DNA of 39,536 nt from Owenweeksia hongkongensis DSM 17368 (GTDB taxonomy: Bacteria; Bacteroidota; Bacteroidia; Flavobacteriales; Schleiferiaceae). Numbering within the stretch: the stretch's first letter is position 1; every line of letters begins with the position of its first letter. Positions 1,672-30,826 of this stretch are shown here, one piece after another. Below the pieces are notes generated by a model that was given only the letters and a program-made list of their open reading frames with translations, made no database searches and was not told the origin of the DNA. The position numbers were made by a program, and so were the translations under genes. The stretch covers positions 1 to 39,536 of the forward strand of contig CAMDTE010000007.1 in the NCBI GenBank assembly GCA_945907425.1, given 5' to 3'.

Positions 1672-2414
1672 AATTATTGGAAGGAAAAGTGGCCATCATT
1701 ACAGGTGCGTCCAAAGGAATTGGCAAAGGCATTGCTTTGGCCTTTGCACAACACGGAGCAAACGTGGCTTTTACTTATTTATCTTCGGTAGAACAAGGCT
1801 TGGCCTTAACTGCAGAGTTAGAAGCTTTGGGTATAAAGGCCAAAGGATACCGCTCTGATGCATCTGATGCGCAACAAGCCGAGGAACTAATCAATGCGGT
1901 AGTAGAAGATTTTGGCCGTATTGACTGCGTGGTCAATAATGCGGGAATTACCAAGGACGGACTGCTTATGCGCATGTCAGAAGATGATTTTAACAAGGTG
2001 ATCCGGGTCAATTTGAACAGCGTTTTCAATATGACCAAAAGTGTGCAACGCATCCTGTTGAAACAGAGATCAGGTAGTATTGTCAACATTTCTTCTGTGG
2101 TAGGAGTTAAAGGAAATGCAGGTCAGGCAAATTATGCAGCATCCAAAGCGGGAATAATTGGATTTACAAAATCAGTAGCTCTGGAACTGGGCTCCCGGAA
2201 CATCCGATGCAATGCAGTGGCTCCTGGTTTTATTGAAACAGAAATGACGGCTATTCTGGACGAGAAAACAGTCCAAGGATGGCGTGATGCAATTCCCTTG
2301 CGTCGAGGTGGCCAAGCGGCCGATGTGGCCAATGCTTGTGTGTTTTTGGCTTCCGATATGAGCTCTTATATTAGCGGACAAGTGCTGAACGTAGACGGCG
2401 GTATGTTGACATGA
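1668..2414 (+). CDS. fabG: 3-oxoacyl-[ACP] reductase-like short-chain dehydrogenase
   Basis: A classical SDR of 248 residues. The nucleotide-binding motif TGASKGIG is at 12-19, NNAG at 90-93, and the catalytic residues S143, Y156 and K160 lie in SIVNISSVVGVKGNAGQANY and following residues. The C-terminal segment NVDGGMLT is typical of FabG. FabG reduces 3-oxoacyl-ACP with NADPH in fatty-acid elongation. Bacteroidota often carry more than one FabG-like SDR, so a role outside bulk fatty-acid synthesis is possible. The gene is translationally coupled on both sides by 4-bp overlaps. Confidence 0.85.
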   Translation: MKLLEGKVAIITGASKGIGKGIALAFAQHGANVAFTYLSSVEQGLALTAELEALGIKAKGYRSDASDAQQAEELINAVVEDFGRIDCVVNNAGITKDGLLMRMSEDDFNKVIRVNLNSVFNMTKSVQRILLKQRSGSIVNISSVVGVKGNAGQANYAASKAGIIGFTKSVALELGSRNIRCNAVAPGFIETEMTAILDEKTVQGWRDAIPLRRGGQAADVANACVFLASDMSSYISGQVLNVDGGMLT

Positions 2415-4174
2415 GTACACTGCTCCTAGCGTTGGTCCCCGCTGCGCTACTTGCTGGGTGGGTGTACCGTCGTTGGCCTTATTCACTTCCTAGTAATGGG
2501 TTGCGTTTACTGCGGATGCTTTGGGTTTGGTTGGCTCTACTGTTTTTATTCAACCCTCAGTTTCCCTTCTCTTCAGTAGAAAAGGAACGGCCCCTTGTTC
2601 TGGTAATGGAAGACAGATCGGGATCAACCCGAGGCGTTCATTGGCCGGTCGTAGAACTTCCGTGGGCAGACACCCTGCGCATTTCTTTTGGAACGGGTCA
2701 ATCCACATCGATAGATAGCGCACTCACAAAAGCCAGTCAACGGCTTGCGGGAAAATCACCAGCTGGGATCCTTTGGTTAACAGACGGTGTGTTGACCCAT
2801 GGAATGGATTGGCGCGTACCCACGGAGCGTTATCCCGGAACTCACCAAGCGATTGTCCCTAACGACACCGTCCTAGACTCCGGATGGAAGCTCGTCTCCA
2901 TAGAATGTCCTACCCGGGTGCAAAAAGAAGAAAGCGTAACCTGCGACTTGCTCTGGCAGCACACGGGGAATAGCGTTTCTTCAACGTCTGTTTCGGTACA
3001 ATGGGGGAATCAAGTATTAACCCGATTGACGCTTCCTGCACAAAGGGGGCCGTCTTGGCAGAGCACGCCGTTGGTATGGAAACCAGAAGAAACGGGGAAT
3101 AAGCCGCTGTTTGTGAGGGGCCAAAATGTTCAATCCTTGGTTTCTGTGTTGGATGAAAAACGATTGCTGATTGTTTTTTCTTCCCGTTTAACGGCAGATA
3201 TTTCCTTTTGGGTAGACAACATAGTGGGTTCACGCCGCGTAGAATCTCGATTTCGCAAAGGAAGTGAACCCGAAAAAAGTGATTTTGATGCCGCTATCTG
3301 GCTTGTGCAGGGAGAGCAAGCGGTTTGGGGAGAAGAGCGTTTTCAAGGAGCTATTGTTCGTTTGCCTTCGTCACCGCAAGCACAGGGACCTGTTGGCGTC
3401 TTGTCTATGGAAAGCAGTTGGGGATCCTGGGATTTTCCAACAGTACATCGGTTGCAATCCGTTCGCCTGAAACGATTACCCAAAGAAGAAAGCGTGCTGT
3501 GGAATGATGGGTTCCCTGTGATTGTTTGGCAGCCACATCCGGCAAGAATGCGCGTTGGGCTTGTTGGATTTCAGGAAACCGCTTTGCGCGTAGATTCGGG
3601 CTTGGCTCGGCTTCCGGGCAGTCTCATCGATCGTTTGTGGAGTGCGCGAGCAGATGGATCGTGGGGTATCTACCCACCCAGCCCATCGATTCCGTTTACA
3701 AAGCAATCCTGGCGTGGCGAATGGAACGGATGGGATCCCTCCAGCAGTACCAATGGTCCTACAATCCACATTTCTTCGCGAGGAAATTTCTCTTTCCCTC
3801 TGATCGCTTCTTCTCGTGGAATCTATGGCCTAGGAGCTGCCGTCAAACCTGGATTGTATTCCTACCAAGCCGATGGAGAATGGAATGGAGAGAAAAGACG
3901 CATGACGGGCATTTGGCGTGTATTGGAGGGGAATCCGGAAGCGCAAAAACCCACTTCCTTTTTTTCTTTACGTCGGGCCGGTATTTCCGTTGTTCCCCTA
4001 CATGCTTCCGCGAAAGCATTGGCACAATGGAAGCAGGCGGCATGGGCCCCTGAACAATGGCACGAACAAAAAAAGTCCCGCAGTTGGCGGGACTTTTGGT
4101 GGGCTCTGGTTCTGGCAGGTCTTGTGCTCAGCGTTGAAGCTTTTGCACGAAAACACTGGACCGGCGAACCGTAA
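2411..4174 (+). CDS. VWA-like membrane-anchored protein of unknown function
   Basis: A 587-residue protein with two N-terminal membrane segments (about 3-18 and 32-48), a large soluble region, and a C-terminal membrane helix (about 564-580). This is the layout of BatA-like and other Bacteroidota VWA membrane proteins. Residues 60-72 (RPLVLVMEDRSGS) contain a DxSxS pattern at 68-72, and LWLTDG (121-126) resembles the later MIDAS aspartate loop. The MIDAS-like match suggests a divergent VWA domain, but this is inference from short motifs. No enzymatic function is recognisable. It is the last gene of the START-PAP2-fabG operon, with a 4-bp overlap. Codons near its 3' end also form a terminator hairpin for the convergent gene. 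Confidence 0.6.
   Translation: MSTLLLALVPAALLAGWVYRRWPYSLPSNGLRLLRMLWVWLALLFLFNPQFPFSSVEKERPLVLVMEDRSGSTRGVHWPVVELPWADTLRISFGTGQSTSIDSALTKASQRLAGKSPAGILWLTDGVLTHGMDWRVPTERYPGTHQAIVPNDTVLDSGWKLVSIECPTRVQKEESVTCDLLWQHTGNSVSSTSVSVQWGNQVLTRLTLPAQRGPSWQSTPLVWKPEETGNKPLFVRGQNVQSLVSVLDEKRLLIVFSSRLTADISFWVDNIVGSRRVESRFRKGSEPEKSDFDAAIWLVQGEQAVWGEERFQGAIVRLPSSPQAQGPVGVLSMESSWGSWDFPTVHRLQSVRLKRLPKEESVLWNDGFPVIVWQPHPARMRVGLVGFQETALRVDSGLARLPGSLIDRLWSARADGSWGIYPPSPSIPFTKQSWRGEWNGWDPSSSTNGPTIHISSRGNFSFPLIASSRGIYGLGAAVKPGLYSYQADGEWNGEKRRMTGIWRVLEGNPEAQKPTSFFSLRRAGISVVPLHASAKALAQWKQAAWAPEQWHEQKKSRSWRDFWWALVLAGLVLSVEAFARKHWTGEP
4068..4097 (-). terminator. Intrinsic terminator for the TlpA-like gene, inside the neighbour's coding sequence
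   Basis: A perfect 11-bp inverted repeat (4071-4081 with 4087-4097; core GTCCCGC/GCGGGAC) has a five-base loop. On minus it is followed by seven T's (A run 4068-4074). It lies 78 bp beyond the stop codon of the minus-strand gene at 4175, within codons for KKSRSWRDF of the convergent plus-strand gene. Confidence 0.7.
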
Positions 4175-5272
4175 TTAGCGCAAGTTCTTTGCAAGGAAAG
4201 CCGTAAGATCTTTTACGGATACGTTGCGCAAAACGATGGTCCCTTTGCCGTCCAAAACAATGTTTTGAGGAATAGAACGGATGCTGTACAACTCGGCAGC
4301 GCTATTATTCCATCCACGCAAATCGCTCATGTGTTTCCATGTCAATCCGTCTTCAGCAATAGCACCCTTCCAGGCCTCGGCCGTTTCATCAAAACTTACC
4401 CCGATTACTTCTAGTCCTTTGGAGTTATATTGTTTGTACAAAGCGACCAATTCTGGGTTTTGAGCACGGCAAGGACGACACCAAGAAGCCCAAAAATCCA
4501 CCAAAATGTATTTCCCACGAATAGACGACAACGACACGGGTTGTCCAGCAGGATCTGCCTGTGTCAAATCCGTTAGTTTTTGGCCGATGGCTACCTTTTT
4601 TAATTTTTCAATCCGCTCTTTCAAAGCGATCACATCCGGAGCCCCTTGAAAAGAATCCTCTGAACTTTCCAAAATTTTCTCCAAAGAAGACAATTCTTCG
4701 TCGAACAAATACCGATTGGCGACAAAGGCCCCTAAGGGACCATTGTTGGCAGCAAAACGAGTCATAAAAGCCATATTTCCCTCGTACATTTCCTGAAAAC
4801 GCCCCATCAAGGCTTCTGCTGTGGCCACATCGCCGCTTTGCATAGAGCGACCGTATTCTTGTTCCATTTGACCGGCTTGTTGCTGGAATGTCTCTTGATG
4901 GTCCATGAATGCAGACAGGCTATCGGTCAATGGAGATCCTTTGGCTCTACCGCGGAAAGGCATCGCCGCTGCATCGCCCGTAACTTCTACCGATTCTTTC
5001 CAACCGTAGAGCATAACAGGTGGTTGTAAACCGTCTATCTGGACAAACAGCATTTGTGCCTGGTCTAATTCTGCAGTCAACTCCGCTTTCCCGTCTTTGA
5101 TAAATACGCTATCAAGCGCTATAATTTCTGTTTCTGTTACTCTTACCAAACGAGCATAGACGGAGTCTCCAGCCGTCCAGTTGTCTAAAGAAACAGATAC
5201 ATCCATTGTGTTTTGACAACTAGACAGGGTCAGTACGGCCCCGAGCGTCAGGAAGGTATTTTTAAAATTCAT
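4175..5272 (-). CDS. TlpA-like thioredoxin-fold lipoprotein with DUF4369-type N-terminal domain
   Basis: A 365-residue protein. MNFKNTFLTLGAVLTLSSCQ is a lipoprotein signal ending in a lipobox-like LSSC. It is followed by a beta-rich region (about 20-130) of the DUF4369 type, a helical linker, and a C-terminal TlpA/AhpC-TSA thioredoxin domain (about 225-365) with active site WASWCRPC. It is expected to be a periplasmic thiol-disulfide oxidoreductase tethered to a membrane, acting in cytochrome maturation or disulfide reduction. A longer frame from 5359 would overlap the divergent peptidase gene and bury the signal peptide, so 5272 is chosen. Its stop directly abuts the stop of the convergent VWA-like gene with no spacer. 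Confidence 0.85.
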   Translation of the reverse strand: MNFKNTFLTLGAVLTLSSCQNTMDVSVSLDNWTAGDSVYARLVRVTETEIIALDSVFIKDGKAELTAELDQAQMLFVQIDGLQPPVMLYGWKESVEVTGDAAAMPFRGRAKGSPLTDSLSAFMDHQETFQQQAGQMEQEYGRSMQSGDVATAEALMGRFQEMYEGNMAFMTRFAANNGPLGAFVANRYLFDEELSSLEKILESSEDSFQGAPDVIALKERIEKLKKVAIGQKLTDLTQADPAGQPVSLSSIRGKYILVDFWASWCRPCRAQNPELVALYKQYNSKGLEVIGVSFDETAEAWKGAIAEDGLTWKHMSDLRGWNNSAAELYSIRSIPQNIVLDGKGTIVLRNVSVKDLTAFLAKNLR

Positions 5273-5276
5273 GCGG

Positions 5277-5284
5277 CAAAGATA
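5277..5284 (-). promoter_or_regulatory. -7 element of the TlpA-like gene
   Basis: TATCTTTG on minus is an exact TAnnTTTG match ending four bases before the ATG at 5272, predicting a leaderless transcript. No convincing -33 TTTG is seen at 19 bp. It is divergent from the box at 5293-5300, with 8 bp between them. Confidence 0.55.
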
Positions 5285-5292
5285 CCCAAGCT

Positions 5293-5300
5293 TACCTTTG
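5293..5300 (+). promoter_or_regulatory. -7 element of the S46 peptidase operon
   Basis: TACCTTTG is an exact TAnnTTTG match ending four bases before the ATG at 5305. The expected transcription start would fall at or next to the start codon. No clear -33 element is seen. Confidence 0.55.
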
Positions 5301-5304
5301 GAAA

Positions 5305-7443
5305 ATGAAACAAAAATTACTTTTTGCAAGCCTAATTTCCGTACTGAGTTTTTCGGCAATAGCTGGGGAGGGAATGTGGCTGCCTTTTCTATTGAGTCAG
5401 AACGAAGCGGCCTTACGAAAAAGCGGGTTGCGGTTGACGGCCAAAGATCTGTACGATGCCAATCAGGCCAGCTTAAAGGATGCCGTGGTCCATTTTGGAG
5501 GCTTTTGCACGGGTGAAGTGGTTTCCCATCAAGGACTCATTTTCACTAACCATCATTGCGGGTACGATGCCATACAAGAGCACAGCTCTGTGAACAATGA
5601 CTTATTGACCTATGGATTTTGGGCCAAAAACTTAGCGGAAGAAAAACCCAATCCGGGCTTGTTTGTAGATTTCATTCGGTATATGGAGGATGTGACTCCT
5701 TTGATCCTCCAAAATATCCCGTCTAAACTCACCGATACAGAGAAGGCGTTGGCTATAAAAAGCAACATCCAGTCTTTGATTCAACAAAGAGAAAGCCTTC
5801 GAGATTTGGAATACAGCGTCAAACCCATTTATTATGGAATGCAGTACATTCTGGTTGCTTCGGAAAGGTATTCAGATGTCCGGTTGGTTGGAGCGCCGCC
5901 TAGTTACATTGGAAAATTTGGGTCCGATACGGACAATTGGGTCTGGCCTCGGCATACGGGTGATTTTTCTGTCTTTCGTGTGTATGCCTCACCTCAGGGA
6001 AAGCCTTCCGCATACCACGCAGAGAATGTCCCCTTGCACATTGCTCATCCCTTGAAGATTTCTATTTCTGGTGCCGAAGAAAATGATTTTACCATGGTGT
6101 ACGGTTTCCCAGGAAGGACAGAGGAGTATTTGCCAGCCGCAGGCGTTTCGCAAGCAGTGGATTGGCTCAATCCCTTGCGCATAGGGGTTCGTAAACGATT
6201 GTTGAGCACTTGGGACAGCGCGATGCGTGTCTCTCCAGAAATGAAAATTGCTTATGCCTCCAAATACGCTAGTTCTGCCAATGCCTATAAGAAATGGATA
6301 GGGGTAAACATAGGCATCAAGAGAACCGGAGCCCTTCAGGCCATCGCCAAAGAAGAAGCGGCCGTCGTGCACTTGGGCTATGAATTTGCGCAAAACGTGA
6401 AGAGCATTAACGCGGCCTACGAAGCGGCCAATCCGCTGATGGCTTCTAGAGAATTGTACGCGGAAGTGGTCTTGCGCGGCTGGGAGCTGGCCGGATTGGC
6501 TTCTCAATTGAAGGGGTTGACGGAAGAAAAAGTGGCATCCGCAGAGTTCGCTGCCTTTTTGCAAGATTTTTATAAAAATTACAACCCGACCTTGGACCGT
6601 CGAGCATTGCAAAAAACATTGGCCTACTGGTTAGTGGAAGCTCCTCATGGGTGGCCTTCTTTGCAGGTCCCTCCCTTAGAAAAAACCCAAGCATCTGCTC
6701 TCGCTTGCATGGATGGATTCTTGGCCCACCCTAAGACCTCTCTATCGTTGTACCAAAAAGATCCCTCTGCCTGGTGGAAGGAAGCACAGGCAGACCCTGT
6801 GATGCTTTGGATGACGGAATACCAATCCTGGGCTCAAACTACCTTGTCAACACCGCTAAAACCATTCCTGGAAACGATTTCCAATGGATTACCGCTGTAT
6901 ATGCGAGGTCTGATGCAAGCAGGGGAGGGGAAAGACTTTTATCCCGACGCCAACAGCACGCTTCGGTTGGCTTCCGGAAAGGTACTGGCCTACAGCCCTG
7001 CGGATGGGGTAGAGTATACCACCCATACCACTTTGGATGGAATGATGGCCAAATACATACCTGGAGATTACGAATTCGATATTCATCTTCCGTTGCGAGC
7101 GCTGTATGCACAAAAGGATTTTGGTCCGTATGCCATGCCGAACGGCCAAATGCCCGTCTGTTTCATTGCCAGCAACCATACTTCGGGCGGCAATTCTGGC
7201 AGTCCCGCCTTCAACGCCCGCGGTGAATTGATCGGTATCAACTTTGACCGGGTTTGGGAAGGAACCATGTCGGACTACTATTTTGACGAGCGCATTTGCC
7301 GCAACGTCATGGTGGATATACGCTATGTTTTGTTTATCATAGATAAATTAGGCGGAGCTTCTCATTTGATTCACGAAATGGAGTTGGTTCAAGGCCACTC
7401 TGGGCGTACTTTTGTGGCACCAAAAAAAGCATCCAAAGAATGA
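5305..7443 (+). CDS. S46-family dipeptidyl-peptidase, DPP11-like
   Basis: A secreted serine exopeptidase of 712 residues with a Sec signal peptide ([20 protein letters not shown]). The chymotrypsin-like triad is visible: the His in [11 protein letters not shown] (H83/H84), the Asp in WPRHTGDFS (D220) and Ser631 in [10 protein letters not shown]. Members release dipeptides from peptides in the periplasm and are characteristic of asaccharolytic Bacteroidota. In the Porphyromonas gingivalis enzymes the residue 18 positions after the catalytic Ser sets specificity: Arg (R673) in DPP11, Gly in DPP7. Here it is Arg649 ([10 protein letters not shown]), so cleavage after Asp/Glu is predicted. It heads an operon with sucD (4-bp overlap). 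Confidence 0.9.
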
Positions 7444-29434: not shown

Positions 29435-29791
29435 ATGAGCAATGTGAAAAACAGTGTCGTCCTCATTGGACACATGGGAGCAGACCCCGAAACAAAAAAT
29501 TTTGAGTCCGGCAATTTAGTGGCCCGATTTAAGATCGCTACCAACGAAAAAATGAAGAATTCCAGCGGAGAAAGTCGAGTGGAGACACAATGGCACCAAA
29601 TAATTACCTGGAATAAGAATGCAGAGTTTGTAGAAAAGTATCTAAAAAAGGGTGACTTAGTGGCCGTCCAGGGCAAACTAGTGCATCGGTCCTATGAAGA
29701 CGACAAAGAGATCAAACACTATATTTCTGAAGTGATTGCCAACGATATCCAAACTTTGGCTCGGAAATCAAACGCTCCCGAACACACCTAG
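29435..29791 (+). CDS. ssb: Single-stranded DNA-binding protein, short form
   Basis: A 118-residue OB-fold protein. NSVVLIGHMGADPETKNF, NLVARFKIATNE, WHQIITWNKNAEFVEKYLKK and DLVAVQGKLVHRSYED follow the SSB core in order. The acidic Gly/Pro-rich C-terminal tail with DDDIPF that recruits partner proteins is absent; the protein ends KSNAPEHT. It is therefore probably an accessory SSB, with the main one elsewhere. The last 24 bp overlap the 3' end of the convergent carboxypeptidase gene, and a perfect hairpin starts 11 bases after its stop. Confidence 0.88.
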   Translation: MSNVKNSVVLIGHMGADPETKNFESGNLVARFKIATNEKMKNSSGESRVETQWHQIITWNKNAEFVEKYLKKGDLVAVQGKLVHRSYEDDKEIKHYISEVIANDIQTLARKSNAPEHT

Positions 29792-30826
29792 GGCGCTCCA
29801 TTGGGTAACCTTCTGGCCCACGGCCAGAAGGTTACCCTTCAAAATTTCTTCGCAGTAAATCGTTGTGATCGCGGGGCAATCCGCCACATCCCCGACCTCC
29901 ATGATTTCATAATAAATGCCTTCCGTATTTTCAAACAAACTCAAGGCAACGCCCGTTCCTGATTTTTCCGACAACAACAATAGGTCCACAAGACCCGTTT
30001 CCGCCGGCTCTAAGTCCGTATACCGACGAAGGTATTCCTCCGCGGGAATCTCTGAAAATTGAACAAGTAATGCATGCAAAACCGTAGAAAGCACACGGGC
30101 TTGGTACGTGCGATTGTAATCTGTGGAAAACGCCCCTGTTTCTATCAAAACAATAGGAGCGTATTTTTCTTGAATCAATTCGCCAAAAGCGGAAGGGTAA
30201 AATTCATCAGAAAAACTAGTACATCCGGCGGGGTGAATAGCGCTGATTTTATCGACCAAGAAACCAGACCAAATTTTTGAAATCTCACGAAAAGAATTGT
30301 CCAGATCTGTCGGATGATTTCGCGGTGAAAGAATGGAAAAAGTAGCTGGAATGGACGTGTTTTTGTGCCTAAAAGTGACCCGTTGGTCGTGGAGATTCAA
30401 ACACAAATCCGGCTTGATTCGTTCCAAGAGTTTGATTAATATTTGAGCTTCTGGCGTGGCGCATTCTCGGGCATCTCTATTAATATCCAACCCTGAGGCA
30501 TTCTCTCGTGTAAAACGATCCGCACCGTCTGGATTTAAAAGGGGGATAAAATAAAAGGTGCATTTCTCCTGTGCTTCTTTCGGAAGCTCTTCTTGGAATA
30601 ATGCCAGAAGGGCGTTCGTCGCTGTCGGCTCGTTGCCATGCATCTGCGCCCATCCCAAGAGAATACGCGGACCGTGACCGGCACGGTACAAATAAATAGG
30701 CTTATTCTCCGAGCTTCGACCCGCTTCTGTTCTATCCCATGGCCCAATGGAAGTCAACATCCATTCGGCCCACTCACCGAATGGTTTGAACCGAGGGACA
30801 AAATTTAACAAGGAGTTACTATTCAT
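29768..30826 (-). CDS. M14-family zinc carboxypeptidase-like protein
   Basis: A 352-residue metallopeptidase. Zinc ligands fit H63 and E66 (QMHGNEPTAT) and H146 (LCLNLHDQ), with E229 (VLIETGAF) as the catalytic glutamate. NPDGADRF and GLDINRDARE complete the substrate-binding side. No signal peptide is visible from ATG at 30826, so a cytoplasmic location is expected. A longer frame from 30871 would run into the divergent gene's start and is rejected. Substrate is unknown; the family includes peptide and cell-wall peptide hydrolases. Codons near the C-terminus (GNLLAVGQKVT) form a perfect 16-bp inverted repeat. Confidence 0.8.
   Translation of the reverse strand: MNSNSLLNFVPRFKPFGEWAEWMLTSIGPWDRTEAGRSSENKPIYLYRAGHGPRILLGWAQMHGNEPTATNALLALFQEELPKEAQEKCTFYFIPLLNPDGADRFTRENASGLDINRDARECATPEAQILIKLLERIKPDLCLNLHDQRVTFRHKNTSIPATFSILSPRNHPTDLDNSFREISKIWSGFLVDKISAIHPAGCTSFSDEFYPSAFGELIQEKYAPIVLIETGAFSTDYNRTYQARVLSTVLHALLVQFSEIPAEEYLRRYTDLEPAETGLVDLLLLSEKSGTGVALSLFENTEGIYYEIMEVGDVADCPAITTIYCEEILKGNLLAVGQKVTQWSALGVFGSV
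29803..29837 (+). terminator. Perfect 16-bp hairpin after ssb, inside the M14 coding sequence
   Basis: GGGTAACCTTCTGGCC (29803-29818) pairs fully with 29822-29837 across a three-base loop. It begins 11 bases past the ssb stop and is followed by TTCAAAATTTCTTC, a weak U-rich tail. The same bases encode the penultimate part of the convergent M14 protein. A termination or mRNA 3'-end stabilising role for ssb is likely. Confidence 0.6.

Follow-up and report, generated by a model that had tools for sequence, protein, structure and literature searches.

The ssb/M14 junction and its hairpin

The window, i.e. the whole stretch of 39,536 nucleotides analysed here, belongs to a genome (G000) with a 1.55-Mb assembly in 124 contigs. 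It contains an ssb-type gene and an M14-type carboxypeptidase gene that converge and overlap tail to tail, and a hairpin that starts 11 bases past the ssb stop codon and lies entirely within the M14 gene:

29435..29791, + strand: ssb-type gene of 118 aa (Pfam SSB, E 2.8e-32), a short paralogue that lacks the acidic C-terminal tip
29768..30826, - strand: carboxypeptidase gene of M14 type and 352 aa (Pfam Peptidase_M14, E 1.7e-7), running towards ssb
29768..29791: tail-to-tail overlap of the ssb and M14 coding regions, 24 bp
29803..29818, + strand (ssb sense): 5' arm of the hairpin, 16 nt
29819..29821, + strand: loop of the hairpin, 3 nt, read on the opposite strand as the Val codon GTG of M14
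29822..29837, + strand (ssb sense): 3' arm of the hairpin, 16 nt
29838..29852, + strand: 15-base tail past the stem, TTCAAAATTTCTTCG; weak

The two arms (29803-29818 and 29822-29837) were 100% complementary with 16/16 pairs, and the hairpin, GGGTAACCTTCTGGCC, was centred about 30 bases past the ssb stop. On the M14 strand this DNA encodes ...K-GNLLAVGQKVT-Q..., and there the arms are aligned to the codons, with GGT/ACC, AAC/GTT, CTT/AAG, CTG/CAG and GCC/GGC paired across the one-codon loop GTG. The RNA fold of the hairpin reached -32.5 kcal/mol (z -5.6) and was equalled by 0/200 shuffles; no other perfect inverted repeat with a short loop in the whole window is as long. The preliminary description of this DNA had reported a perfect 16-bp stem with a 3-base loop, 11 bases past the ssb stop and coding GNLLAVGQKVT, all of which was confirmed.

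The hairpin sequence was found as a single copy in the genome when searched at up to 2 mismatches, and a repeated or mobile element was rejected for this reason. A known RNA family was rejected as well, as no match came near the gathering score. The genome carries two SSB genes: the window copy (29435-29791) ends in SNAPEHT and has no acidic tip, and the second (L183:14936-15349) ends in NNDEYADDL. A search for viral relatives of the M14 protein in viral_contigs found none.

The junction in related genomes

The hairpin at the 3' end of ssb recurs in relatives. M14 loci were gathered from 60 relatives, 88 family-search genomes and 80 GTDB loci; the relatives with M14 loci are Flavobacteriales, several of them labelled Cryomorphaceae. 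The 170 records comprised 119 without an ssb match, 9 duplicates, 1 non-adjacent pair and 41 distinct convergent ssb/M14 junctions. When a spacer of 29-120 bp separated the genes, a hairpin stood just past the ssb stop in 20/20 junctions (z -2.0 to -6.7), and when the genes overlapped by 4-24 bp it was found inside the M14 coding sequence in 6/6 (the window, L005, L011, L219, L205 and L109; z -3.6 to -6.6); these counts are not independent, since the loci are related and most spacer loci come from one genus, and the z-scores, calculated from 25-60 shuffles, fluctuate by some tenths between runs (for L040, -1.5 and -2.0). Among the short overlaps, that of L109, from the cultured relative Phaeocystidibacter luteus, measures 4 bp. 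At overlaps of 43-55 bp a hairpin was detected in just 2/14 junctions (L201 and L202). Its absence from the other 12 means that ssb can manage without one and that some other way of ending the ssb RNA must operate at these long overlaps. The long-overlap junctions where it was missing are L042, L108, L210, L213, L214, L216, L240, L059, L200, L061, L064 and L198. No hairpin was detected in L227 either, where the apparent gap between ssb and M14 is 204 bp.

The hairpin sequences of the six short-overlap junctions differ among genera. Even L005, which is from the same genus as the window, carries an entirely different 12-bp stem with a 3-nt loop at the matching place, CCAGCGGTCTCC. It shares no obvious sequence with the window hairpin; its loop is again one M14 codon (Ile) and its centre again lies about 30 bases past the ssb stop. 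In the third genome of the genus, G002 (L004, C53), the M14 frame reaches the end of the sequence without a stop and the junction is unreadable. The G002 contig breaks off within the part that encodes the M14 C-terminus and does not reach the expected site of the hairpin; a strong hairpin there may have interrupted the assembly.

Wobble pairs and paired changes

Pairing was kept under sequence change, with G.U over A.C on the ssb strand. Our stem search tolerated G.U and A.C mismatches equally. Read on the ssb strand, the stems contained 14 G.U mismatches (11 from loci with a spacer and 3 from those with a short overlap) and 0 A.C. By our estimate the 14 represent perhaps nine or ten independent changes, as many of the loci are sister species. 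An A.C on one strand is a G.U on the other, and the presence of every G.U on the ssb strand thus argues that the structure is kept in ssb-sense RNA. The ssb transcript is, judged from these sequences, the likely target of the hairpin. Being perfect, the stem in the window carries no information on the wobble bias.

The fold was more stable in ssb-sense RNA at 4/6 short-overlap loci and in M14-sense RNA at 1/6. In one genus (g9; L011, L219 and L109) the hairpin within the coding sequence has a consensus of 14 pairs. At two standard pairs both bases have changed with pairing kept, and 4/14 pairs are each broken in one of the three sequences. The ssb-sense folds of this genus (-19.1/-22.4/-22.5) were better than the M14-sense folds (-12.7/-17.6/-14.5) in 3/3. 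Independent divergence of the arms, which the preliminary description had named as evidence against its proposal, was not seen in the short-overlap loci.

Other convergent ends and other M14 ends

Control ends came from four genomes, sampled over 674 kb (G000), 404 kb (G001), 136 kb (G013) and 200 kb (G010), a tight convergent end being an overlap of up to 29 bp or a gap of up to 15 bp. A z-score of -3 or lower was found at 13/140 tight convergent ends, divided into 3/3 ssb ends (G000, G001 and G010) vs 10/137 others. Of the M14 3' ends in loci that lack ssb, 5/93 had z -3 or lower and none fell below -4.2. In G000, a perfect stem of at least 9 bp within the next 90 bases was present at 2/85 tight convergent ends. 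Because the controls rarely carried a hairpin, we concluded that the ssb hairpin is a property of the ssb/M14 junction and not of convergent genes generally. A general rule of hairpins at tight convergent ends was rejected for G000, where the downstream fold reached -15 kcal/mol at 11/85 ends vs 13/85 for the control stretch.

Two further sites of the genome were observed at convergent gene ends. In the window, an 11-bp stem with a loop of 5 (4071-4097) is located inside the 3' end of a + strand ORF (2411-4174) and past the stop of the abutting convergent - strand gene (4175-5359). On the - strand a T-tract follows, ACTTTTTTTG, which makes this a terminator-like site for the - strand gene inside its partner's coding sequence. 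At L183:3766-3794 a 13-bp perfect hairpin is written in the final codons of an ArsC-family gene. It lies directly downstream of the stop codon of an abutting convergent fumarase-type gene, in the same layout as at ssb/M14.

Long perfect hairpins within coding sequences

Perfect stems of at least 14 bp within coding sequences occurred 6 times in the sampled 674 kb of G000 vs 0 times in synonymous shuffles; when the synonymous codons of 530 called genes were shuffled in 3 rounds, not even a stem of 12 bp or more arose. Four of the six are mid-gene, in genes confirmed by Pfam. Genes were called by codon score, and some 'within-CDS' hairpins of G001 and G013 are probably at misplaced starts or in false ORFs; only Pfam-checked genes were relied on for the mid-gene hairpins, each of which is perfect, 14-17 bp long and short-looped:

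L046:1575-1605: mid-gene hairpin, abhydrolase; T6 follows on the antisense strand
L179:11833-11866: mid-gene hairpin, M23 peptidase
L057:19449-19482: mid-gene hairpin, SAM methyltransferase
L194:15082-15119: mid-gene hairpin, GT2 gene

The two that were traced, in the abhydrolase and M23 peptidase genes, were absent at the same place in the same-genus orthologues. The abhydrolase orthologue of G002 does contain a perfect 14-bp hairpin, but a different one and at another position (L250:1544-1574). The mid-gene hairpins probably arose by template-switch mutation. As they occur in the same genome, perfection alone is no proof of function. The preliminary description had called the ssb/M14 repeat very unlikely by chance. 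It is indeed far beyond chance, the probability of this stem given the peptide, with codons drawn at genome usage, being about 2.7e-6; the six long stems of the 674 kb, four of them mid-gene, keep this from being proof of selection.

The same stems speak for a purely mutational product, in which a template switch at a quasi-palindrome perfected the arms and a functionless hairpin came to lie near ssb by accident. Their excess over the shuffles and the absence of the two traced ones from orthologues agree with it. So does the literature: PMC4060949 reports that a slight surplus of short inverted repeats within coding sequences was ascribed to sequence-directed mutagenesis, and PMC8794818 describes template switching as able to create and maintain stems. 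We consider an accident of this kind unlikely, as a hairpin occupies this junction in 26/26 loci with a spacer of 29-120 bp or an overlap of 4-24 bp, and a process at the DNA level would not favour wobbles that are all G.U in the ssb sense. Template switching may have made the ssb arms perfect; it does not explain the family-wide junction hairpin or the ssb-sense wobble preference. The nearest relatives examined are about 40% identical in protein, too distant for a nucleotide reconstruction of the ancestral repeat.

The coding palindromes of Nematomorpha mitochondria, as PMC6649704 presents them, are likewise perfect inverted repeats inside conserved coding sequence, and so are quasi-palindrome or template-switch products. 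The ssb/M14 repeat is much shorter than either kind, and it differs from both in being tied to a gene end and in showing RNA-strand-specific wobbles in relatives. A more speculative idea, which we hold to be possible though rather doubtful, is that template switching keeps creating long perfect hairpins in coding sequences of this genus and that those at tail-to-tail ends are recruited as 3'-end signals. If this were true, a shrinking genome could delete its spacers and rebuild gene ends in the codons of the neighbour.

Tail of the hairpin and class of terminator

Past the ssb stop the hairpin is stable, G+C-rich and 16 bp long. Intrinsic terminators, including bidirectional ones between convergent genes, likewise have a G+C-rich stem (16 pairs here) with a short loop just past the stop codon. 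Unlike them, the ssb/M14 hairpin falls short of the TransTermHP rule for a U-tract, which asks for 3 T or more in 6 bases, with 2 T in the first 6 bases after the stem, and its entire stem is located within the partner's coding sequence. Scored by a published formula, the tail reached -3.08 and passes the lenient cut-off of -2.5, yet 11.2% of random genome 15-mers score -3.0 or lower, and the comparison of tails within G000 is blurred, as the stem search counts A/T tracts as part of the stem. Several spacer hairpins of the relatives likewise have weak tails. As a proper U-tract is absent, we prefer the term 3'-end hairpin over that of a proven intrinsic terminator.

A T-tail on both strands, as expected of a bidirectional terminator, was not found; the M14-side tail is AATGGAGCGCC. 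That the hairpin should be a canonical bidirectional intrinsic terminator of both ssb and M14 is therefore very unlikely, in spite of its convergent position and near-symmetric perfect stem and of the similar look of other convergent hairpins of the genome, where at least 3 T are found at the stem 3' end in 11/14 intergenic hairpins. The T-tail is weak on the ssb side and lacking on the M14 side, and the wobble bias concerns ssb alone. Moreover, an M14 transcript terminated at the hairpin, which precedes the M14 stop, would leave M14 truncated.

The preliminary description had also suggested that the hairpin slows ribosomes in the M14 mRNA, which found no support in the folds of the short-overlap loci. 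An element of the M14 mRNA, slowing ribosomes near the M14 end or affecting stability there, is highly improbable: the M14 RNA does contain the hairpin as well (-42.2 kcal/mol for the 93-nt end), but it is rare in M14 genes without a convergent ssb, and most short-overlap loci fold better in the ssb sense. Least credible of all is a site acting as DNA (a protein-binding palindrome, or a recombination or mobile-element site), for which the perfect palindrome would speak, but the sequence is single-copy at up to 2 mismatches, sequences differ among genera and G.U wobbles occur.

Discussion

Taken from sequence comparison, the hairpin in our view probably acts as RNA in the ssb transcript, fixing the 3' end of the ssb mRNA from within M14 codons. 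The nascent, untranslated RNA just past the ssb stop would fold into a very stable hairpin, which would fix the 3' end either by helping RNA polymerase to terminate or by blocking 3'-exonucleases after later termination, whether through Rho or through colliding polymerases. Both routes would agree with the observations: intrinsic termination of low strength, or an RNA that ends farther downstream and is then trimmed as far as the hairpin. We infer that the spacer was lost in this lineage and that the hairpin is for this reason written in M14 codons, where synonymous sites and some residues would be held so that pairing persists. In the M14 mRNA, translating ribosomes probably keep the hairpin from forming.

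The proposal of the preliminary description that M14 codon choice is constrained to provide a 3' end for ssb was in its main part supported: the hairpin is kept across the family, moves into the M14 coding sequence at slight overlap, keeps its pairing while its sequence differs among genera, and has ssb-sense wobbles. A canonical terminator was not borne out, given 2 T in the first six bases past the stem, nor is such a hairpin a general rule in this genome, with perfect stems of at least 9 bp at just 2/85 tight convergent ends.

Exonuclease trimming halts at hairpins. Rho-terminated 3' ends are described in PMC7815308 as processed by 3'-to-5' exonucleases. A 3'-terminal hairpin left by Rho termination and trimming would need to be stable and would not need a U-tract, an analogy that would fit ssb/M14. 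In the same E. coli Term-seq study, 99 RNA 3' ends fall into two classes at once, primary (downstream of a gene) and antisense (opposite a different gene). The geometry is common to both systems, the 3' end of a gene being located opposite or within 50 bp of its neighbour; the E. coli ends were mapped as RNA, whereas the ssb/M14 case is known from sequence and comparison. PMC5381666 describes terminators as evolving by sequence turnover with the hairpin conserved, as at the ssb/M14 junction, and convergent genes without site-specific termination are known according to PMC3027695.

RNA 3' ends antisense to a neighbour are thus a known kind, of which ssb/M14 is a well-documented new example; we found no report of this junction in the open-licence literature. 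Its special value is that one junction can be compared in three states, with a spacer hairpin, with a coding hairpin and with no hairpin; it is a clear case of one gene's codons probably carrying the RNA end of another gene on the opposite strand. The code of the M14 gene probably doubles as the place where the ssb message ends. The junction could be used to test how transcript ends persist in compact genomes that lose their spacers, and whether template switching is a source of such hairpins.
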